Source of the DNA: Betaproteobacteria bacterium
GTDB lineage: Bacteria > Bdellovibrionota_B > Oligoflexia > Silvanigrellales > Silvanigrellaceae
Length of the DNA: 64,000 bases
Reading direction: 5' to 3'
Assembly (NCBI GenBank): GCA_016868315.1
Contig: VGHE01000005.1
Location: 124,001-188,000, forward strand
Part shown: one piece after another, positions 38,611 through 53,327 of the stretch
How the letters are laid out: every line of letters begins with the position of its first letter
Numbering within the stretch: the stretch's first letter is position 1
Notes under the pieces: generated by a model
The model's input: the letters and a program-made list of their open reading frames with translations, nothing else
What the model was told of the DNA's origin: nothing
The model's database searches: none
Made by a program: the position numbers and the translations under genes

Positions 38611-39735
38611 TCAGAACTGGTATGTGGCTTGAATCTCGAACTTTCCGCGCACAAGCGGAGCGGATGGAATCTTAGGGTTTTCCCCGTTGGCAGGAACCTT
38701 GGATTCAATTTTGGCTCGACTCGAGCCGACCTCGAGACCCAGACCTCCGAGCAAACCGTACCGACCTGCCTTTTCTTCGGGCGAAACGTAAGATGCCAGC
38801 GCCATGACCTGCAACGCAAAACGCTTTTCGACCCAGCTGTACTGGGTCTCTTGGGCGTCTTTGATGATGAGGTCAGCATGCTCATAAGCAGGAGTCAGGC
38901 GAAGATAGCCGCGCAGAGGCGCCTCGATCTCTAAGTCAGAAGGTTTCCAATTGATGATTTCCAAATCAGCCGGGAGAAGAAGCCTGAGGGAGGGATGCGC
39001 GCGAGAAAAGTCTGCGAATTCACTGATGACAGAACGAACGCGTTTTGTGTCGTTGCGGTCGAAGGGCTTGTCAGCTCCACCATCCGTGGTGATTTGCGCC
39101 GAGTGAATCTCGAAGACCATACCCTGGGTGTAGGCCGGGTAGATAGCCTCTGCATAAGCCGTGCGCAAAGTGAGGCCTGTGCGGCTAATCTTGGCGTCGT
39201 CTGAGTTCTTGTAGCTGTATGAACGAAAACCAAGCCCCGCATTGAATGATGACTGACGCTCCGCACGGCGGAGCAACTGATATGCAGCCCCAAAGTCAAC
39301 GTATGTCCAGGCGCCCGACTCAAGAAAATGCTGCCCCAGGGTGGTGACTCCAAGAGTCCGGAACGCGTCCCCACCCACAGCCAGTCCGCGGGTCAGCCCC
39401 AACATACAAGAAGACACCATTGAGCAAGAAAGCTCGGCTTCTTGGGGTAAAACGGCTGGATGAAGCCTGTTTTCGAGGAGCGAGGACGCAGGAACAGCGC
39501 GCAGAGGACTAGACAGAGTGGAAAGCGATGCGCTTCCCGAAGCTGAGCTTTGTGGCACTGGGGACGATGCTGGCGCAGCAGCTGGTGCAGGAGCTGGCGA
39601 AGCAGTCTGCGCCCACGCAGGACGAATGACTCCTCCCAGCCCAAATCCAACTGTGCCGGAAATAAAAAATACCGAGCTAGCTGCTGCAACGGAATTCACC
39701 AGATTTGCTTTGCGGCGGTTGGTCATCATCCCCAT
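38611..39735 (-). CDS. Exported protein, probably outer-membrane beta-barrel; unknown function
   Basis: 374 residues from the ATG at 39735 (AAGGGAG upstream). The N-terminus has a signal peptide with likely cleavage after AWA (about residue 42), then an Ala/Pro/Ser-rich linker of about 45 residues. The mature part alternates hydrophobic and polar residues and ends with an aromatic strand (KFEIQATYQF), a C-terminal Phe typical of BAM-inserted barrels. No homologous family recognised. It is divergent from the methionine S-methyltransferase gene and reads toward rplK. Confidence 0.6.
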   Translation of the reverse strand: MGMMTNRRKANLVNSVAAASSVFFISGTVGFGLGGVIRPAWAQTASPAPAPAAAPASSPVPQSSASGSASLSTLSSPLRAVPASSLLENRLHPAVLPQEAELSCSMVSSCMLGLTRGLAVGGDAFRTLGVTTLGQHFLESGAWTYVDFGAAYQLLRRAERQSSFNAGLGFRSYSYKNSDDAKISRTGLTLRTAYAEAIYPAYTQGMVFEIHSAQITTDGGADKPFDRNDTKRVRSVISEFADFSRAHPSLRLLLPADLEIINWKPSDLEIEAPLRGYLRLTPAYEHADLIIKDAQETQYSWVEKRFALQVMALASYVSPEEKAGRYGLLGGLGLEVGSSRAKIESKVPANGENPKIPSAPLVRGKFEIQATYQF

Positions 39736-39926
39736 GACGGCTCCCTTTTGAATCAATTTCTTGTGGCCGCCATACTGTGGGCAGGACGTCGATTTTGCAA
39801 CTTCCCTGCCATGTTGTGTATTGAAGACATCTGAAGCACACCACCCCGTGGGCATCGCTTCACCCTCTGGCACTGCGCAACACATCAGCGTGATCGAGCA
39901 CTTTGAGAAAATGGGGAGCGAGCTAC

Positions 39927-42900
39927 ATGACACTCATCAGCCCAGAAGAATTTTTGGAACGTTGTACGGAATCGAGTCAGACAACATACGACCTTCTGAA
40001 AAAGCTACTCGACGAGGCACTCACACCCGAAGGCCGCGCAGAGACTCGACGGTTTCTGACACGCTTACGCAAAGCGTGCGATGAATCCGAGCTGAACGAT
40101 GATGAGTTCCTCGCTCAGCACCACTTCACATTCAATACGCTTGCACTCGATAACGGCAGTGGTGGTGAAAATGCGCTTTGCCTGTTGCAGCTGCCCAGTA
40201 TCTTTACTCCAGAAGACTGGTCTTTCACCTTCTTTGAAGGTTTGGCGCGTTACCCCGCATCAGAATTTCAAGGACGCGTTGTTGCCGAGCTTGGGTGCGG
40301 CAACGGTTGGATTTCGATCGCCCTCGCTGCGAAGGCCTCCCCGCAGAAAATTCTTGGGCTTGATATCAACCCGCGCGCCATCACATGCGCACGTTTGAAC
40401 CTGCTTCTCAATGCACTCGACGACTCCGGCACACCAAAAATCGACCATGAGGGAAAAAGCCTTCTTGATCGCGTCGAATTTCACGTCTCTGACCTGCTGA
40501 GTTACCCAATCGAAAAACGTATTTCTCTCGACCGCGTGATTGGTTGCATTCCACAAGTTCTGAGTCCAGAGCCTCTCGTCGCTGCACAGTTCGTTTCCGA
40601 AGATGCCGACGATAATTTCCTTTATTCTCTGAGCAACTATTGCGAGAAACAAGGGTACGTCGAAGACCAGTTCGGACTTGGTTTAATTGCTCGTGCTCTT
40701 GAGGAGTCCATTGCTATTAGCAAACCTGCAGCGAAAGTGATTCTAAACCTGGGTGGGCGCCCTGGGACGGCAGTCCTTGAAAGATTGCTCTCGCGGCGTG
40801 GATTTTCGGTCAAGAAAATTTGGAGCACGAAGGTCTGGCAAGCTGCAGACACAGACATCTTGCCACTCGTGGAAATTGAAAACATAACACCACACCGCTT
40901 TGAGTTCTTCACAAGCCTGACCAGTGATGAACCAATCTGCGCACGCACAGCGTTGGAATATCAAAAGAGGGGCGGGCAGATTGCTCACAGCTTAAGTGTC
41001 TACGAAGCTCAAATTAAATATCCGTCCGCAGTCCGTTCGATCTTCAAACTCATCGGCCAGACCGGATTCGAAGATTCACGCAACGGCCTGGATCTTGCGT
41101 TCGCAAACGACGAACTTGCCGAAGAGAAAATCAACTTCATTGGTGGCCTTGCCGAATGGCTGCAGCAGAAACCAAATTTGCCCTATTCGGATGCTGAGGG
41201 CGAACCGCAGTTGCGTCGGCAAATTGCACAATTTCTGCGGAGCTACTGGAAAATCCCACTGACGGCTAAGAGTGTGTTCGTCACACCCAACCGTAAGGCT
41301 GCACTCAAAAATCACATCCAAATGTTGCGTCCGAGACTCACGCTGATTCAAAAAGATCTTACCCAACACATTCCCCCTCACTGGCTCAATGCATCGAGCC
41401 GAGGCGCGAACACAACTCCAGGAATCGTGGAGGCTCCCAAACGAGTCGACGAGATCTGCAAGTTGGTTCTTTCTCTTGAGCCGCAGCTGGTTATCTGTTC
41501 GCTGCAGGATTTCGAGGTTCGCACGAGTGATGCTTTTGTCAGGCTGGTGGAGACCTGTACGCGCGTCAATGCGCAGTTGATTGTCGACCTCTCCGACCAC
41601 TTCGAATTGTCGAGCCAGCCTGCACCACACGGAGTGCTCTCTTGGCTCTCCGAACATCCTTTGCCCGGACAGGTCACGTTGCTTTTTGCGCTTGTGCGCA
41701 ACCGCGTTTACAGCGATCTGGAACTGAGTTTCCTCATCACGGAAAATCTCGATTTACTTGAACGCATGACAGCCGCAGCGGAGCTGACTTATAGCCGAAC
41801 TCCGCTTCTGACACAGCGCTATTTCGGAAAGATATTTGCGGATCTTTTGAATTTTCAGCTCACCGACCTGCGCCGTTCCAAGAGCGAGCAGCTGCGCCTT
41901 CCACGCAACCCTGAAGCAACGAAAATGCTCCCCCTCCCGGAAAATATCGTTGAGGCTTTCCAGCACCCCGCAATCGCAGTGCACAGTCTCGAACTCAGCC
42001 CTCAGCATGTCAGATTGGATTATGGTGAAAACTGCCTTGCCTCACCGCTGCAACTCGATAGTGCGATCATGGAAAGTTATCTGCGTCAGAACATTTCGGC
42101 GCATGAATTAAATTGTGAAAAACCCGTGATCGAAATGGTCGAGAAACGTTTTGGACTAAATCATTTTACAGAGAGAAACGTGGTTCTTGGGCTTGGTGTA
42201 GCCCCCCTCTTTTGCGCAGCTCTCGAAATGATTGCGTCGCGGGGCGAGACGATTGCATTGCCCACAGGGGCATATGGTTATTTCCGAGCAGCATGCGATT
42301 ACGTTGGTGTGCCCTGCGCAATGGTTCAAACGAGTGATAAAAATAGGTTCAAAATAACCACGAATGAACTCGATCAGTTCCTCTCCGAGAAACGCTGCCA
42401 GTGGCTTTACTTGAATGGCCCGATTGTTAATCCGACCGGTGTCATATACTCCAATGGAGAAATTCTAGATTTGCTTGACGTCCTCGAGCGGCATAAATGT
42501 GGACTGATCTTCGACACCATCTTTTCAGGCCTCGAATTCAACGGAAAACATACGCATCTTAGCCTCAGCCGCTTCCGCCAGGCACGTTCCGAACAACCGC
42601 CTGCATCCAAAATGATTGTTCTGGGTGGGCTGTCCAAGGAACTCGCTGCAGGGGGGCTACGCTTGGGCTGGGCTGTTACCGAAGACGACGAACTTGCACA
42701 AAACCTGAGAGCTCGCGTCACCGGAACCCCACACGCCACAGTGCGATATGCAGCACGGAAAATTTACTTGGCTCTCAACGACGCGAATCATTCCGTCCAA
42801 AAGGAACTTGAGCAGCAAAAAGCCACACTCCGCAGCAGAGCTGAGAAACTCACCACTGCTCTGACTGAATTGGGCTGGGACGTTATTGAACCAGAAGGGG

Positions 42901-43157
42901 GATTGTTCGTCTGTGCCTCACCTCAAAAGTACCTCGAAGGTTTGGGGCGCGATGTTCCCGAGAGCCAACTCCGCACGGCAGCCGACGATATCGCAACACA
43001 ATTACGCATCCAGACGGGACTGCTGGTTAACAGCGCCACGTGGACGGGGCTGCCGCACCAGTTGCGTTTTGTCATCAGTGTGGAAGAAGAAACCTTGGAG
43101 TCCGGAATTGAGCGACTGAAACAATTCGACTCAAATTGGCAAAACCAAGGTCGATAA
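39927..43157 (+). CDS. Methionine S-methyltransferase, plant-type two-domain enzyme (MMT)
   Basis: 1076 residues from the ATG at 39927 (GGGGAG upstream); the plant enzymes are of nearly the same length. MMT transfers a methyl group from SAM to methionine to make S-methylmethionine. The N-terminal half has PSIFTPEDWSFTFFEGL, the SAM motif ELGCGNG (from about residue 121), LGLDINPRA and GCIPQVL, then SLSNYC and VEDQFGLGLIARA, all nearly identical to plant MMT as I remember it. The C-terminal half is aminotransferase-like, with NPTG (Asn835), IFDTIF (Asp863) and SKELAAGGLRLGW (Lys904, Arg912). Followed after 39 bases by a P-loop kinase gene. A SAM-linked methyl or sulfur storage role is inference. 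Confidence 0.9.
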   Translation: MTLISPEEFLERCTESSQTTYDLLKKLLDEALTPEGRAETRRFLTRLRKACDESELNDDEFLAQHHFTFNTLALDNGSGGENALCLLQLPSIFTPEDWSFTFFEGLARYPASEFQGRVVAELGCGNGWISIALAAKASPQKILGLDINPRAITCARLNLLLNALDDSGTPKIDHEGKSLLDRVEFHVSDLLSYPIEKRISLDRVIGCIPQVLSPEPLVAAQFVSEDADDNFLYSLSNYCEKQGYVEDQFGLGLIARALEESIAISKPAAKVILNLGGRPGTAVLERLLSRRGFSVKKIWSTKVWQAADTDILPLVEIENITPHRFEFFTSLTSDEPICARTALEYQKRGGQIAHSLSVYEAQIKYPSAVRSIFKLIGQTGFEDSRNGLDLAFANDELAEEKINFIGGLAEWLQQKPNLPYSDAEGEPQLRRQIAQFLRSYWKIPLTAKSVFVTPNRKAALKNHIQMLRPRLTLIQKDLTQHIPPHWLNASSRGANTTPGIVEAPKRVDEICKLVLSLEPQLVICSLQDFEVRTSDAFVRLVETCTRVNAQLIVDLSDHFELSSQPAPHGVLSWLSEHPLPGQVTLLFALVRNRVYSDLELSFLITENLDLLERMTAAAELTYSRTPLLTQRYFGKIFADLLNFQLTDLRRSKSEQLRLPRNPEATKMLPLPENIVEAFQHPAIAVHSLELSPQHVRLDYGENCLASPLQLDSAIMESYLRQNISAHELNCEKPVIEMVEKRFGLNHFTERNVVLGLGVAPLFCAALEMIASRGETIALPTGAYGYFRAACDYVGVPCAMVQTSDKNRFKITTNELDQFLSEKRCQWLYLNGPIVNPTGVIYSNGEILDLLDVLERHKCGLIFDTIFSGLEFNGKHTHLSLSRFRQARSEQPPASKMIVLGGLSKELAAGGLRLGWAVTEDDELAQNLRARVTGTPHATVRYAARKIYLALNDANHSVQKELEQQKATLRSRAEKLTTALTELGWDVIEPEGGLFVCASPQKYLEGLGRDVPESQLRTAADDIATQLRIQTGLLVNSATWTGLPHQLRFVISVEEETLESGIERLKQFDSNWQNQGR

Positions 43158-43196: not shown

Positions 43197-43862
43197 ATGC
43201 GTATTGCCATTTCGGGCCACAGCGGATGCGGAAACACCACGGCGACCACAAATGTCGGTCAGGCGTTAGGGTTGAAGATAGTGAATTACACTTTCCGCGA
43301 CCTCGCCAGAGAGCTCGAAATGAGCTTCGATGACCTTCACAAGCAGGCTCCAACAAATTTCATTTTTGATTATCTGACCGATCTGAAATGCATCCGCTCA
43401 GCATTGACGGAAAATATCGTGCTCGGCACGCGCCTTGCTGCCTGGCTCATGGATGCCGATCTGAGAATCTGGCTTCACGCGCCTCTCGAAGAAAGAGCGC
43501 GCCGCATCAACAAGCGCGAAACCGAAAAAGCTGCGACCTACGAATCGGTTCTCTACAAAACCCTGAAGCGAGATGAACAAAACCGAAAACGCTACTTGCA
43601 GCTTTATGGTCTAGATATTCACGACCACTCTGACTTCGACATTACCATCAATACCGACAAACTCACGGCAGAGCAGGTTTCGAGCTTGATTGTTGCTGCA
43701 GCGCAGTGGGCTAGCAAAAACCAACTCGAGCGCAAGAACATTCACATCAAGCGCATTCGTGAAATCATCGCCGACAAACTCAAAGTCTCTGAACAGCAAA
43801 TCCTTGACCCGAACCATCCTATCGATGTGAAGGAAATATACGCGCGTCTGAATAAAGTCTAA
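43197..43862 (+). CDS. Cytidylate kinase-like P-loop protein
   Basis: 221 residues. The N-terminal P-loop reads GHSGCGNTT, where the usual Walker-A lysine is Asn. It is followed by NYTFRDLARELEMSFDDL and an RLAAWL / DLRIWLHAPLEERARRI region, as in the cytidylate-kinase-like family (nucleoside monophosphate kinases of the archaeal CMP-kinase branch). A C-terminal extension of about 60 residues is rich in Lys/Ile helices (IKRIREIIADKLKVS). CMP/dCMP phosphorylation is likely from the family but the variant P-loop leaves activity open. It ends with a 4-base convergent overlap on the next minus-strand gene. Confidence 0.7.
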   Translation: MRIAISGHSGCGNTTATTNVGQALGLKIVNYTFRDLARELEMSFDDLHKQAPTNFIFDYLTDLKCIRSALTENIVLGTRLAAWLMDADLRIWLHAPLEERARRINKRETEKAATYESVLYKTLKRDEQNRKRYLQLYGLDIHDHSDFDITINTDKLTAEQVSSLIVAAAQWASKNQLERKNIHIKRIREIIADKLKVSEQQILDPNHPIDVKEIYARLNKV

Positions 43863-47646: not shown

Positions 47647-48138
47647 ATGATTGAGTGTCCAAAAATTTATTTCACGCCCGATCCTCCCGACCAGAACGGC
47701 GCAGCCGGCGGCGGTGTTTCCATTGCCGGAGTGAAGTTTTCCAAGATTCCTCGCGTCCTCATCGCCAAACCTGGCCTGGATGGTCACGACCGTGGCGCAA
47801 AATACATCGCAAAGGCTCTGCGTGATGCGGGCATGGAAGTTATCTACACGGGCATCAGGCAGTCTCCCGAGGACATCGCCATCACAGCTGTGCAGGAAGA
47901 TGTCGACGTCGTAGGCCTGTCACTGCTCTCTGGTGCGCACACGGCGCTTTTTCCTCGAGTGTTAGATGCGCTTAAAAAGCAGGGTGGCGGCGATATTCCT
48001 GTGATTGGCGGCGGAATCATTCCCGATGAAGATGTTCCTGAACTTATCAAGGCCGGAGTAGGCGCAATTTTCACGCCCGGCACGCGTATTGAAGACGTCA
48101 TCTTAGAAATTAAAAGACTTCTGGAGAACCAACCGTGA
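47647..48138 (+). CDS. Cobalamin-binding subunit of an acyl-CoA mutase (methylmalonyl-CoA mutase, small subunit)
   Basis: 163 residues consisting of a B12-binding domain behind a 30-residue Gly/Pro-rich tail. The base-off/His-on motif is DGHDRG with His47; SLLSGAH and GGGIIP complete the cobalamin pocket. The domain matches the C-terminal part of methylmalonyl-CoA mutase as a stand-alone subunit, as in split archaeal-type enzymes. The catalytic large subunit is not in this window. Context (PCC, epimerase and MeaB downstream) makes methylmalonyl-CoA the likely substrate. The stop overlaps the GTG of the next gene. Confidence 0.88.
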
Positions 48139-49691
48139 CACTCACGACAGCACAGTCCATCGAAAAGCTTCACCGCGAGCGTAGTAAAGCCATTGAGGGC
48201 GGTGGTTCAAAGCGTGTCGAGGCACAGCACAAAAAAGGCAAGATGACCGCGCGCGAGAGAATTGCCGAGTTTGTCGACCCGGGCACCTTCACTGAATTCG
48301 ACGCTTTCGTGGTTCACAACTGCTCTGACTTCGCCATGGAAAAACAAAAGGTGCTTGGCGATGGTGTCGTCACCGGATGTGGAAAAGTGAACGGTAGAGA
48401 TGTTTACCTCTTCGCGCAAGATTTTACTGTTTTCGGCGGCAGCCTCTCGGAAATGCACGCAAAGAAAATCTGTAAAGTAATGGATCTCGCCGTTCAAAAT
48501 GGTGCACCTGTGGTCGGACTCAACGACAGTGGTGGCGCGCGCATTCAGGAAGGTGTGGCGAGCTTGGGTGGTTATGCGGAAATTTTTTACCGCAACACAC
48601 TGGCCAGTGGAGTCGTTCCTCAAATCAGCGCCATTCTCGGTCCGTGCGCGGGCGGCGCGGTTTACTCTCCTGCCATCACCGACTTCATTGTCATGACCCA
48701 GCACACGTCGCATATGTTCATTACAGGTCCTGATGTCATCAAGACCGTGACCGGCGAAGAGATCGACTTTGAAACTCTGGGGGGTGCAGAAACACACAAC
48801 GTGAAAAGCGGTGTTGCAGATGCAGCATGCTCTGACGAATACGAGACGCTTCAGTTTGTCAAAAACCTGCTCAGTTACATGCCTCAGAACAATCTTGAAT
48901 CTGCGCCTGTCGTGCCTTGCACCGACCCCACTGACCGCGCCGATGCCGAACTCAACACATTGATTCCCGACAACCCCAACCAACCTTACAGCATGCACGA
49001 TGTCATCAAGCGCGTGTGTGATTCAGGTTCGTTCCTTGAGGTTCAACCCCTCTATGCGAAGAATCTGATCATCGGCTTCGCCCGCTTGGGTGGTCAGTCG
49101 GTGGGAATTGTTGCCAACAACCCCATGGCTCTTGCTGGGGTGCTCGACATCAATGCAAGCATCAAAGGAGCGCGTTTTGTGCGCTTCTGTGACTCCTTCA
49201 ATATCCCTTTGGTGGTCTTCACCGACGTCCCCGGCTTCCTGCCAGGCACGGCTCAGGAGTTCGGCGGCATCATCAAGCACGGAGCGAAACTGCTGTATGC
49301 CTTCTCGGAAGCATCTGTACCACGCTTCACCGTCATCACACGCAAAGCCTACGGTGGAGCGTATGATGTGATGAACAGCAAGCATATCGGTGCTGACCTG
49401 AACGTCGCTTGGCCGTCAGCGGAAATTGCGGTGATGGGACCCGAAGGGGCTTGCAATATCATTTTCAAAAATGAAATCGCGCAGGCCGAGAATCCAGAAG
49501 CGAAAAGAAAAGAGCTTATTGAGGCCTACCGCGATACGTTTGCGAATCCTTATGTGGCTGCATCGAAGGGTTTCATCGATGACATCATCGAGCCCCGAGA
49601 AACCCGTCGGGTTCTCGTGACTGCACTGAAGATGAACGCCAACAAACGCAAGAATCTTCCGCGCAGAAAACACGGAAATATCCCGCTCTGA
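48135..49691 (+). CDS. pccB: Propionyl-CoA (acyl-CoA) carboxylase, carboxyltransferase subunit
   Basis: 518 residues, GTG start overlapping the previous stop (GTGA). Carboxyltransferase features: [84 protein letters not shown] and [12 protein letters not shown]. It transfers CO2 from carboxybiotin to propionyl-CoA, giving (S)-methylmalonyl-CoA. Propionyl rather than acetyl specificity is inferred from the neighbours. Confidence 0.92.
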
Positions 49692-49715
49692 TGAGCAACA
49701 AGGACTTGAAAGAAC

Positions 49716-51305
49716 ATGACCACAACAATTCCTAAATACAACGAACTGGTGTTCCGACCCTTCAAAAAGGTGCTGATTGCCAACCGCGGTGAGATTGCTG
49801 TCAGAGTCATTCGCGCCTGTCGCGACCTCGGACTTTCGCCGATCGCGGTTTACTCAGAAGCCGACGCCGAGGGTCGACACGTCTCTATGGCCGACCAAGC
49901 TTTGTGCATTGGCCCAGGCCCAAGCGCTGAAAGTTATCTGAAGATAGAAAATATCATCAAGGCTGCGCACGACTCTGGCGCAGAAGCTGTGCATCCAGGT
50001 TTTGGCTTTCTCTCCGAAAATGCCGAATTTGCGAATGCTGTGCTTAAAGCCGGACTGATCTGGATTGGTCCGTCACCGAGTGCCATCCACTCCATGGGCG
50101 ACAAGACCTTTGCCAAGCGCGCGGTGACAGCCGCAGGAGTCCCCTGCTCTCCCGGTAAAAATGAGCCTCTCAAGAACGTCGAAGACCTCAAGAGTGTGCT
50201 CAAGGAGATTGGCTATCCGGTTATTCTTAAAGCTGCAGCGGGTGGTGGTGGCCGCGGGATGCGTGTCATCCGCAAACCAGAAGAAATTGAGGATGCATTT
50301 AACAACTGCCAACGTGAAGCACTCAGCTACTTCGGCAATTCTGATGTCTTCTGCGAACGATTTATTGAACGCCCGCGCCACGTCGAAATTCAAGTTCTCG
50401 CTGACGGGCACGGTAACACTGTGCACTTGTTCGAGCGTGACTGCACCATCCAGCGCCGCAATCAAAAACTTATTGAGGAAGCGCCGAGCAGCTACATTTC
50501 TGAAGCGACCCGTGCAGAAATGGGACGCGTTGCGGTGAAGGCTGCTCAGGCCGTGGGTTACGTCAATGCAGGGACGTGCGAGTTCATTCTCGAATCCCCT
50601 GAAAAATTCTACTTCATGGAGATGAACACCCGTATTCAGGTGGAGCATCCGGTAACAGAGGCCATCACGGGCATAGACCTTGTGCAGTGGCAATTGCGTG
50701 TTGCTGCGGGCGAAGCACTGGGCTTTCAGCAGAAAGATCTCTCCATCCGCGGCTGGGCATTCGAAGCGCGTATCAACGCAGAAGATCCCTTCAACGGATT
50801 TCGTCCATCCGCGGGCGAAGTGCAGCTGCTAGAGCTTCCCGCAGGTCCTGGAGTGCGCGTGGATACCCAGCTTTACAGCGGTTATCGTATACCCACCCAC
50901 TACGACTCGATGATCGCTAAAATCATCGTACATGGTCAGAATCGGGCAGACGCTTTGGCCAAACTCTATCGTGCCTTGGGTGAAACCGTCATTCACGGCG
51001 TTGAAACAACGATTCCCTACCACCAAGCGCTCATCAAATGTCCGGCGTTTCAAAGCGGCGAATACACAACCCGCTTTGTTGAAGAAAATGAAGCGCTGCT
51101 CAAAGAATTCGAAACAAAGCAGACTCCGCTCACTGCTGAGTCGGCCTTGGCTGCGGGTCTCAAAATCCATTTGGCACGCACGCTGGGTACAGCAACAGCC
51201 GCCGAGGCCGCCAATTCCACAGCGCATGCAGGCGCGTCGTCGAATAGTGCGACCAACTTAAGCCCCTGGCGACAAGCTCACCTGCTCGAAGCAACGCGGC
51301 AGTGA
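49716..51305 (+). CDS. pccA: Biotin carboxylase subunit of propionyl-CoA carboxylase
   Basis: 529 residues; a biotin carboxylase without the usual C-terminal biotin-carrier domain. It has FKKVLIANRGEIAVRVIRA, HPGFGFLSENAEFA, the ATP-grasp loop KAAAGGGGRGMR, ERDCTIQRRNQKLIEEAPS and MEMNTRIQVEHPVTEAITG. The last 60 residues are Ala/Ser-rich and look unstructured. It carboxylates the biotin on the separate carrier protein encoded next. Confidence 0.92.
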   Translation: MTTTIPKYNELVFRPFKKVLIANRGEIAVRVIRACRDLGLSPIAVYSEADAEGRHVSMADQALCIGPGPSAESYLKIENIIKAAHDSGAEAVHPGFGFLSENAEFANAVLKAGLIWIGPSPSAIHSMGDKTFAKRAVTAAGVPCSPGKNEPLKNVEDLKSVLKEIGYPVILKAAAGGGGRGMRVIRKPEEIEDAFNNCQREALSYFGNSDVFCERFIERPRHVEIQVLADGHGNTVHLFERDCTIQRRNQKLIEEAPSSYISEATRAEMGRVAVKAAQAVGYVNAGTCEFILESPEKFYFMEMNTRIQVEHPVTEAITGIDLVQWQLRVAAGEALGFQQKDLSIRGWAFEARINAEDPFNGFRPSAGEVQLLELPAGPGVRVDTQLYSGYRIPTHYDSMIAKIIVHGQNRADALAKLYRALGETVIHGVETTIPYHQALIKCPAFQSGEYTTRFVEENEALLKEFETKQTPLTAESALAAGLKIHLARTLGTATAAEAANSTAHAGASSNSATNLSPWRQAHLLEATRQ

Positions 51306-51325
51306 CACACAGAGGAGCCACCTGA

Positions 51326-51895
51326 ATGAGATTTAAAGTTCAACAAAAAGGCGATGCCGAAGCCTGGTTCTTCGAAGTCAGTGATCACCTGCTGGCCAAT
51401 GGTCTCAGCAGCGGAAAAACCTTTAAAGCCAAAAAGCTCACGAGTGACCTCACTGATGCCGGCGAGCTCGAAGTGCGCCTGCATGCAGACAGACGGTCGA
51501 TTGTGGTCGGCCAACACATTGTTCCCTTCTCCGGATTGGGACAAATGCTCAAAGGCCACGATGCACGTTTGAAAATGGGAGCGCCAGCAACTTTCCGCAG
51601 GATTTCTGTGGAGCCCATAAAGCCCATTCTCCCCAAAAAAACCGCTGCGAACTTGGGTGGTGGCGACCAAAAATCACCGCTCACTGGAAAAGTTCTGGCT
51701 GTTTTGGTCACAGAAGACCAGATGGTTAATGAAGGAGATGTTCTGCTGACCATCGAGGCCATGAAGATGGAAAACAGAATTCTCGCCGAGTGCGCCGGTC
51801 GCATCCAGAATATTAAGGTTGCTCCTGGCAACAGCGTCTCTGTGGGAGACGTGCTGTGCTTCCTGCAACCCTCTGCGAATGAGAACAATTCATGA
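51326..51895 (+). CDS. Biotin carboxyl carrier protein for the acyl-CoA carboxylase
   Basis: 189 residues. The C-terminal biotinyl domain has the motif AMKMEN with the biotinylated lysine at residue 147, preceded by GGGDQKSPLTGKVLAVLV. The N-terminal 115 residues form a beta-rich domain, likely the subunit-assembly (BT-like) region. It ends by an ATGA overlap into meaB. Confidence 0.88.
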   Translation: MRFKVQQKGDAEAWFFEVSDHLLANGLSSGKTFKAKKLTSDLTDAGELEVRLHADRRSIVVGQHIVPFSGLGQMLKGHDARLKMGAPATFRRISVEPIKPILPKKTAANLGGGDQKSPLTGKVLAVLVTEDQMVNEGDVLLTIEAMKMENRILAECAGRIQNIKVAPGNSVSVGDVLCFLQPSANENNS

Positions 51896-52902
51896 TCATC
51901 CAAAGAACGCTGGATGTCTCTCAACTTGCGAAACAACTGACGGGCGAAACCCTTGTTGATGGCATGACAGACAACTGGCGTTCGCGTGTCCGAGCACTCA
52001 GCCGTGCAATCACCTTCCTTGAAAACGATCCCTTGCTTGCCCTCAACGTCTTGGGCAACGCTGGCTTCACACAGGAAAAATCACAGAGTCGGGTGATTGG
52101 TTTAACCGGTCTTCCAGGTGCAGGGAAAAGCTCGCTCACCAACTTAATGGTGCGCGCTCTGCGCAAAGCCGGCAAAACGGTAGCTGTGCTAGCTGTCGAC
52201 CCGTCCTCGCCCCTGTCTGGTGGAGCTGTGCTGGGTGACCGCGTGCGCATGCAGGAACATTTTCGCGACCCAGGCGTTTTTATTCGCTCGATGGGAAGTC
52301 GCGGAGCTCTGGGTGGTGTGGCGCGCTCGACGCGCGGTGCCGTGCGTCTGGCTGGCCTCCTGGGCTTCGATGCCATCATTGTGGAGACGGTGGGCATTGG
52401 ACAAAGTGAAAGTGAGATTGTTGAGCTAGCGGACACCACAATTCTTGTCTTGATGCCCAACAGCGGCGATGAAGTTCAATTGATGAAAGCAGGAGTCCTG
52501 CAACTTGCTGACATTTACGTGGTCAACAAATCTGACCTCGCTAGCCCTGCCCGCATGATCAACGAACTTCATGAAAATACAGCGCCCGATCATCCGGATC
52601 TTTGGTGTCCGCAAATTGTCGCGACCAGTGCTGCAAATGAAGAAGGCATCGACAAAATCATTACAGCAATAGAGCAACACCAACTTTATGAGTCGAACCA
52701 TCCCAAAGGGCATGAACTACGCAAGCAAAGAGCTGTGAAGGAAATCCTGCGCGCCCTGCACCACGTCATTGAACCCGAATTCCTCGAGGCCATTTCAAAA
52801 GTTCCCCCGAGCCAACTTGAAGAGATCATCGAAGGCAAGCGACCAGCCTTGGCTTTGGCACACGACCTAGCCCTCAAATTCAGAAGGAAGGCAACACCAT
52901 GA
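51892..52902 (+). CDS. meaB: Methylmalonyl-CoA mutase-associated GTPase MeaB
   Basis: 336 residues of the ArgK/MeaB G3E family. Walker A is GLPGAGKSS, switch region AVDPSSPLSGGAVLGDRVRM, Walker-B-like VETVGIGQSE, and guanine motif NKSD. The protein loads and protects adenosylcobalamin on the mutase. The overlaps with both neighbours support one operon. Confidence 0.94.
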   Translation: MIIQRTLDVSQLAKQLTGETLVDGMTDNWRSRVRALSRAITFLENDPLLALNVLGNAGFTQEKSQSRVIGLTGLPGAGKSSLTNLMVRALRKAGKTVAVLAVDPSSPLSGGAVLGDRVRMQEHFRDPGVFIRSMGSRGALGGVARSTRGAVRLAGLLGFDAIIVETVGIGQSESEIVELADTTILVLMPNSGDEVQLMKAGVLQLADIYVVNKSDLASPARMINELHENTAPDHPDLWCPQIVATSAANEEGIDKIITAIEQHQLYESNHPKGHELRKQRAVKEILRALHHVIEPEFLEAISKVPPSQLEEIIEGKRPALALAHDLALKFRRKATP

Positions 52903-53327
52903 AGATTCTGAGAATCAACCATCTCGGTATTGCGCCCAAAGCGCCCACACAAGCGAAATCCTTCTTTGAGTCTATCTTAATGTTACAAAATCAGGGCGAA
53001 GAGGTTGTCGCCGACCAAAAGGTGCGCGTCACATTCTTCGAGGCAGAGCGCAGCCGCATCGAAATCCTTGAGGCGACCGACCCTTCCAGCCCGGTCGCCA
53101 AGTTCATTGAAGATCGTGGCGGTGGCATTCAGCATGTCGCACTCGAGGTCGACGATCTCGAGGCTTGGCTGAAGGCTTTGAGTGAACAGGGCGTGCAGAT
53201 GATTGACCCCCAGCCACGCCGTGGTGCGCACAACACTTTGATTGCGTTCGTGCATCCACGCTCAACGGGTGGTATCTTGGTCGAGCTCGTTCAGGAAATG
53301 AAGGAAAAAGTTCATGCAGCGAAATAA
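52899..53327 (+). CDS. mce: Methylmalonyl-CoA epimerase
   Basis: 142 residues of the vicinal-oxygen-chelate fold. The metal ligands expected in the family are visible: His in RINHLGIA, His in GIQHVALEV and Glu in ILVELVQE; RSRIEILE lies between. It converts (S)- to (R)-methylmalonyl-CoA. The next gene starts 14 bases before its stop. Confidence 0.92.
   Translation: MKILRINHLGIAPKAPTQAKSFFESILMLQNQGEEVVADQKVRVTFFEAERSRIEILEATDPSSPVAKFIEDRGGGIQHVALEVDDLEAWLKALSEQGVQMIDPQPRRGAHNTLIAFVHPRSTGGILVELVQEMKEKVHAAK

Follow-up and report, generated by a model that had tools for sequence, protein, structure and literature searches.

A plant-like methionine S-methyltransferase of a Silvanigrella-like bacterium with a predicted PLP site and a degenerate internal aminotransferase domain

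The locus and its methyltransferase module

The stretch of DNA analysed here (64,000 nucleotides of contig VGHE01000005.1; hereafter the window) contains an ORF of 1076 amino acids with an ATG start, which encodes a plant-like ("Group III") methionine S-methyltransferase (MMT) of a Silvanigrella-like bacterium. The host genome comprises 3.24 Mb in 27 contigs, and the nearest named relative at this locus is an uncultured Silvanigrella, whose protein is 71% identical. The protein was divided into three modules, which are listed in Table 1 together with the neighbouring genes and the residues discussed below.

Table 1 Features of the MMT locus (positions in the window).
Feature	Position	Strand	Basis
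Upstream divergent gene	38611-39933	-	no Pfam match
Plant-like (Group III) MMT, three modules	39927-43157	+	translation; full-length orthologs in relatives and other phyla
Module 1, residues 1-331, SAM-dependent methionine S-methyltransferase domain	39927-40919	+	match to MmtN structure 7vvv
Module 2, about residues 395-645, degenerate aminotransferase large domain	41109-41861	+	AlphaFold2, VIA-align, hhalign
Tyr420 in Y-x4-G-x4-R (Tyr420/Gly425/Arg430), Tyr70* position of AAT	41184-41186	+	invariant, 23 complete orthologs
Arg591, module 2 position opposite Lys904	41697-41699	+	hhalign register
Ser623-Arg624, invariant pair	41793-41798	+	23 complete orthologs
Module 3, about residues 666-1072, complete fold-type I aminotransferase domain	41922-43142	+	AlphaFold2, VIA-align
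Asn835 of NPTG (AAT Asn194)	42429-42431	+	invariant, 23 complete orthologs
Asp863 ... Phe866 (AAT Asp222 ... Tyr225); codons 42513-42515 and 42522-42524	42513-42524	+	invariant, 23 complete orthologs
Ser903-Lys904, Schiff-base lysine position (AAT Ser255/Lys258); codons 42633-42635 and 42636-42638 (AAG)	42633-42638	+	aligned to PDB aminotransferases
Arg912 (AAT Arg266, PLP phosphate)	42660-42662	+	invariant, 23 complete orthologs
Arg1047 (AAT Arg386, substrate alpha-carboxylate)	43065-43067	+	invariant, 23 complete orthologs
Archaeal-type (d)CMP kinase	43197-43862	+	TIGR02173, above cut-off
Propionyl-CoA/methylmalonyl-CoA block	47647-53327	+	

The MMT gene was solitary, and its surroundings were common to close relatives only. 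Fluviispira (L042) and Spirobacillus (L033) also had the divergent upstream gene adjoining MMT, in an otherwise different neighbourhood. The (d)CMP kinase gene, which was kept in close relatives, lay directly downstream of MMT and was followed by CinA and others. The propionyl-CoA/methylmalonyl-CoA block consisted of a methylmalonyl-CoA mutase B12 domain (encoded by a small gene of its own), carboxyltransferase, biotin carboxylase, biotin carrier, MeaB, and epimerase. This operon, 4.5 kb downstream, was considered as a sink for 2-oxobutyrate and rejected, as the linkage was found only in three close relatives sharing the whole block. No genes for S-methylmethionine (SMM), DMSP, or methionine were linked to MMT in the neighbourhood of the window gene or of its relatives, which agrees with the report that Group III genes in bacteria are unlinked to DMSP or methionine-cycle genes (PMC9135737).

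A stand-alone homocysteine methyltransferase able to recycle SMM was not found in the host genome; the sole candidates found were MetH (1180 aa) and an ORF of 644 aa, the length of an HMT-MTHFR fusion, and SMM is thus left with no evident other consumer. The second of these, the MTHFR-type ORF, has an HMT domain that might accept SMM. At G000:C4:228823-229641, and likewise in relatives, an S-methyl_trans domain was observed in an ORF of 596-660 aa, corresponding in length to homocysteine-methyltransferase/MTHFR proteins, near the MetH gene.

Orthologs were gathered from relatives, named genomes, and further searches; 23 of them, including the window gene, were complete. Their distribution was patchy. 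MMT was present in 11 of the 14 genomes of its own family (G000 counted), in 7/290 genomes in the phylum of L043, in a single one of the 292 genomes of the cyanobacterial sample, and in 2/197 in the order of Pleionea. A search of viral contigs gave no relatives, and no plasmid record covered 80% of the MMT query, the plasmid matches listed being ordinary aminotransferases.

Residues 93-321 of module 1 matched the structure of MmtN, a Group I enzyme (PDB 7vvv), with an E-value of 6.3e-14 when a profile of the module was used. The GxGxG motif appeared as LGCGNGW at residues 122-128, and Asp146 and Cys207 aligned with the MmtN SAM ligands Asp69 and Cys121. No like residue was found in the alignment for the MmtN methionine ligands Glu127 and Arg132, suggesting that the methionine site of MMT may differ from that of MmtN. 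The two proteins have a homologous methyltransferase domain with shared SAM ligands, whereas MmtN is without the aminotransferase modules. Module 1 would be expected to methylate methionine to SMM using SAM.

The plant MMT (EC 2.1.1.12; Group III), a protein of about 115 kDa, likewise begins with a methionine S-methyltransferase and ends with an aminotransferase-like region (PMC9135737). The hallmark of the group, an aminotransferase-like region of about 700-800 residues at the C-terminus, was present in the window protein, which belongs by lineage and layout to the bacterial Group III MMTs of Oligoflexia and Deltaproteobacteria (PMC9135737). Peng et al. (2022; PMC9135737) described these bacterial plant-like MMTs as dual-domain proteins, with no PLP site described, observed DMSP production in one of four tested strains, and considered the role of SMM in such bacteria difficult to predict. 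In comparison with that description, the present protein has a degenerate aminotransferase domain as an additional, third unit and a full set of PLP ligands, and the MMT family extends here also to cyanobacteria, Gammaproteobacteria, Flavobacteriales, Thermoanaerobaculia, and Planctomycetota. Group III MMTs of bacteria are thus already known, whereas the ligand set and the degenerate middle domain appear to be newly described: a literature search for a PLP site in MMT, a live PLP site, a second aminotransferase domain, or an internal pseudo-dimer found no report, which is weak evidence since its coverage of subscription papers was small.

The predicted PLP site of the C-terminal module

The full-length AlphaFold2 model had a pLDDT of 87.3 and a pTM of 0.85. 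When residues 666-1069 were compared with the aspartate aminotransferase (AAT) 8wkj by VIA-align, a Z of 43.1 was obtained, with 2.7 A over 375 residues. Pfam Aminotran_1_2 matched residues 744-1064 (E 3.6e-39), and a profile of 21 C-terminal domains matched many solved aminotransferases in the PDB, the best with an E-value of 8.6e-27. Both in phmmer and in hmmsearch against the PDB, Lys904 fell on the catalytic SK of class I aminotransferases.

An earlier sequence-only reading had noted, in the C-terminal half of the protein, NPTG (Asn835), a D-x(2)-F step at Asp863 and Phe866, Lys904 in the Schiff-base position, and Arg912. The numbering was right on the 1076-aa ORF, and the placement of Lys904 was borne out by the alignments above and by its conservation: a lysine occupied this column in all 27 covering rows. 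These rows comprise the window gene and 26 bacterial relatives from several phyla, namely Silvanigrellaceae, other Bdellovibrionota, two cyanobacterial genomes, Gammaproteobacteria, Flavobacteriales, Thermoanaerobaculia, and Planctomycetota. Among the 23 complete orthologs, eight of the nine canonical PLP and substrate positions (N835, P836, G838, D863, F866, K904, R912, and R1047) were invariant, and the ninth, S903, was Ser in 22 and Ala in one. Across the module 3 domain, 39 of 386 columns (10%) were invariant; the corresponding hypergeometric P is 4.5e-8, a figure to be read as a guide because the positions were picked from family knowledge.

The equivalents of AAT Asn194, Asp222, Ser255, Arg266, and Arg386 were thus all present (N835, D863, S903, R912, and R1047). 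The residue that makes the Tyr225-type hydrogen bond to PLP O3' was not kept; Phe866 takes its place in the complete orthologs, whereas Tyr stands at this place in the clearly alignable class I aminotransferases encoded by the same genome. The Y225F mutant of E. coli AAT shows slower transamination and a higher substrate affinity. Fast ordinary transamination is accordingly not assured for module 3, and Phe866 is equally compatible with a sensor or with an enzyme other than a transaminase. Judging from the conserved lysine and ligand set, module 3 very probably binds PLP through Lys904. The sequence-only reading had suggested PLP binding by the bacterial protein and structure prediction as a check; the predicted complete aminotransferase fold around Lys904, obtained with good confidence, makes such binding likely.

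The substrate was less evident. No NCBIfam model reached its cut-off against module 3, and the substrate is therefore not readable from curated family naming. The closest curated models, none of them near its cut-off, were a mix of aspartate, tyrosine, and alanine transaminases and of cyclising enzymes (GntC and VioD). With class I aspartate and aromatic aminotransferases (8wkj, 1gd9, and 4my5), module 3 shares the complete fold (Z 42-43) and the PLP ligands; MMT differs from them by the Phe in place of Tyr225 and by the fusion to a methyltransferase, and in that the place of the partner subunit seems to be taken by a degenerate domain within the chain. ACC synthase (7dly and 1b8g) and GntC (8fft) belong to the same fold family, and their match was no better than that of ordinary transaminases; the ACC synthase ACS7 gave a Z of 39.9 and C-S lyases gave about 38, so that these enzymes, at Z 38-40 in the structure list, were not clearly separated from transaminases. 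No feature specific to ACC synthase was established in module 3. A shared Glu in a D-Y-G-E-N motif was not taken as a sign of ACC synthase identity, since ordinary aminotransferases have G-E-P there. The fold is shared, but the aligned stretch of ACC synthase begins after its Glu47 region. Both ACC synthase and GntC carry out reactions at the gamma carbon of their substrate, a sulfonium or hydroxylated amino acid, and this type of chemistry would suit SMM.

The middle module as a possible internal partner

Module 2, which the sequence-only reading had not mentioned, is a second and degenerate aminotransferase domain. AlphaFold2 prediction of residues 332-684 alone gave a pLDDT of 85.2, and this model had 814 Foldseek matches at E <= 0.001; among the matches listed, nearly all were aminotransferases or close PLP relatives. 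Comparison with an aminotransferase large domain gave a VIA-align Z of 17.7, with 2.7 A over 199 residues. Residues ~395-645 covered residues ~41-290 of an aminotransferase chain, that is, the large domain without the small domain, and hhalign aligned module 2 with module 3 at an E-value of 2.2e-5.

We considered whether module 2 could be a second live PLP site and rejected this. NPTG was absent from module 2, and the position opposite Lys904, which is Arg591 in the window protein, varied among the 23 complete orthologs (K in 11, R in 5, H in 3, Y in 2, N in 1, and Q in 1); a Schiff base between module 2 and PLP is therefore very unlikely.

Other residues of module 2 were kept without variation. 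A profile of this stretch matched nearly exclusively aminotransferases in the PDB at the Tyr420 motif (best E 0.0024), and the spacing of Tyr420, Gly425, and Arg430 is exactly that of Tyr70, Gly75, and Arg80 of AAT. By motif reading, the Ser623-Arg624 pair presumably lies at about the Ser296*/Asn297* position, facing the PLP site of the partner. In AAT, Tyr70 and Ser296-Asn297 act on the active site of the partner subunit across the dimer interface.

Module 2 has thus lost the set of PLP lysine, Asn, and Arg and has kept Tyr420 and Ser623 invariantly, whereas module 3 has kept the cis ligands and is gapped, in HMMER alignments, at the place of the Tyr70 loop of aminotransferases. Such reciprocal retention and loss is as expected of an internal pseudo-dimer. 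Furthermore, five structure-match rows of the full model, the bulk of which lay on module 3, included residues from 414-426, the Tyr420 loop, which suggests that this loop packs against module 3 in the model. Taken together, we consider it likely that modules 2 and 3 pair as an internal pseudo-dimer, which would leave each chain with a single PLP site. Such an arrangement, in which one live and one dead copy share out the active-site roles, would be unusual for a fold-type I PLP enzyme. The distances correlated between the three modules at 0.84-0.94, and the modules evolved as a unit; the rate of change was higher in module 3, with a mean difference of 0.62 compared with 0.47 in the methyltransferase module.

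In Arabidopsis MMT, the position of Lys904 is presumably Leu (C-L-S-L-N), in agreement with the 'SLN' named in the sequence-only reading. Lys904, Asn835, Arg912, Tyr783, Tyr420, and Ser623-Arg624 would be Leu, Ser, Lys, Asn, Phe, and Gly-His, respectively, in Arabidopsis; all of these residues were kept in the complete bacterial orthologs. The presumed Arabidopsis sequence would share 53% identity with the window protein over the methyltransferase module and 28% over module 3. If this holds, the two halves of the proposed common PLP site would have decayed jointly in plants.

In L045, and in L078 and L079 (Bacteriovoracaceae UBA1018 / G270), MMT was in two reading frames, split at about residues 560-600, which is inside module 2; this may be either a real split or an assembly error.

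Possible reactions and alternative readings

We propose that module 3 would be an intact fold-type I aminotransferase domain with PLP bound via Lys904, that module 2 would act as a fixed, built-in form of the partner that a second subunit normally supplies, and that it would contribute Tyr420 and Ser623 to the PLP site of module 3, giving one site per chain. This site would act on an alpha-amino acid, since Arg1047 is kept, and most likely on methionine or on the SMM made by the adjacent module, given the fusion to a methionine methyltransferase and the co-evolution of the modules. To this reading as a whole, a three-module MMT whose PLP site is completed by module 2 and acts on methionine or SMM, we assign a probability of roughly 0.6. 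The bacterial MMT is probably a two-reaction enzyme and not a methyltransferase with a dead tail.

The break-down or transamination of the sulfonium product, which the sequence-only reading had raised, is a reasonable inference. The chances are slightly in favour of real catalysis by module 3 on methionine or SMM. Its particular course is more doubtful: transamination to 4-dimethylsulfonio-2-oxobutyrate or the keto acid of methionine is a rather unlikely prediction, and gamma-elimination or cyclisation with release of dimethyl sulfide is an unlikely one. As a tentative proposal, somewhat short of an even chance, the protein would be a self-contained bifunctional enzyme that converts methionine to SMM and then deaminates or eliminates it at a single PLP site formed with an inactive internal aminotransferase copy, the second activity being dead in plants. 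If this were true, bacteria could turn methionine into DMSP precursors or dimethyl sulfide by means of one protein. A PLP site that is intact and shares the chain with the methyltransferase would offer a direct and testable answer to the role of SMM in Group III bacteria and a possible one-protein source of these compounds. It would also explain the large aminotransferase-like region of the plant MMT, as a second activity that is present in bacteria and was apparently lost in plants.

An improbable alternative is that module 3 holds PLP on which methionine or SMM is captured as an aldimine with no turnover, the occupancy of the module controlling the methyltransferase. An aminotransferase-like domain controls DNA binding in MocR regulators, and a MocR-type regulator model matched 20 of 21 members, weakly and no better than many transaminases did. 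A sensor is also consistent with the invariant Phe866 in place of Tyr, and the presumed retention of the domain in plants without the lysine fits a structural or allosteric role. However, the catalytic ligand set, including Arg1047 and Asn835, is kept without exception in the complete orthologs, which argues against a sensor.

Module 3 could also be a PLP enzyme for an unrelated amino acid, with the fusion merely co-regulating or co-localising two activities. The mixture of closest curated models is compatible with this, and no genomic context tied module 3 to SMM; it is nevertheless quite improbable, because the fusion was kept in all phyla in which MMT was found and the modules co-evolve. 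That module 3 is a dead structural remnant without PLP, as presumed for plants, with the lysine kept by chance or for folding, is very improbable: its faster evolution and the lysine remaining in a partly decayed relative (L077) would fit, but the invariance of the canonical positions would not, and exactly these residues would not persist if the site were dead in several distant lineages.

L077 (G195) is an incomplete MMT relative that was not alignable at the C-terminal end. Lys904 was kept there, whereas Asn835 was replaced by Asp, Phe866 by Leu, and Ser623-Arg624 by Gly-Ser: a PLP site in partial decay, in which the cis and trans residues were altered together.
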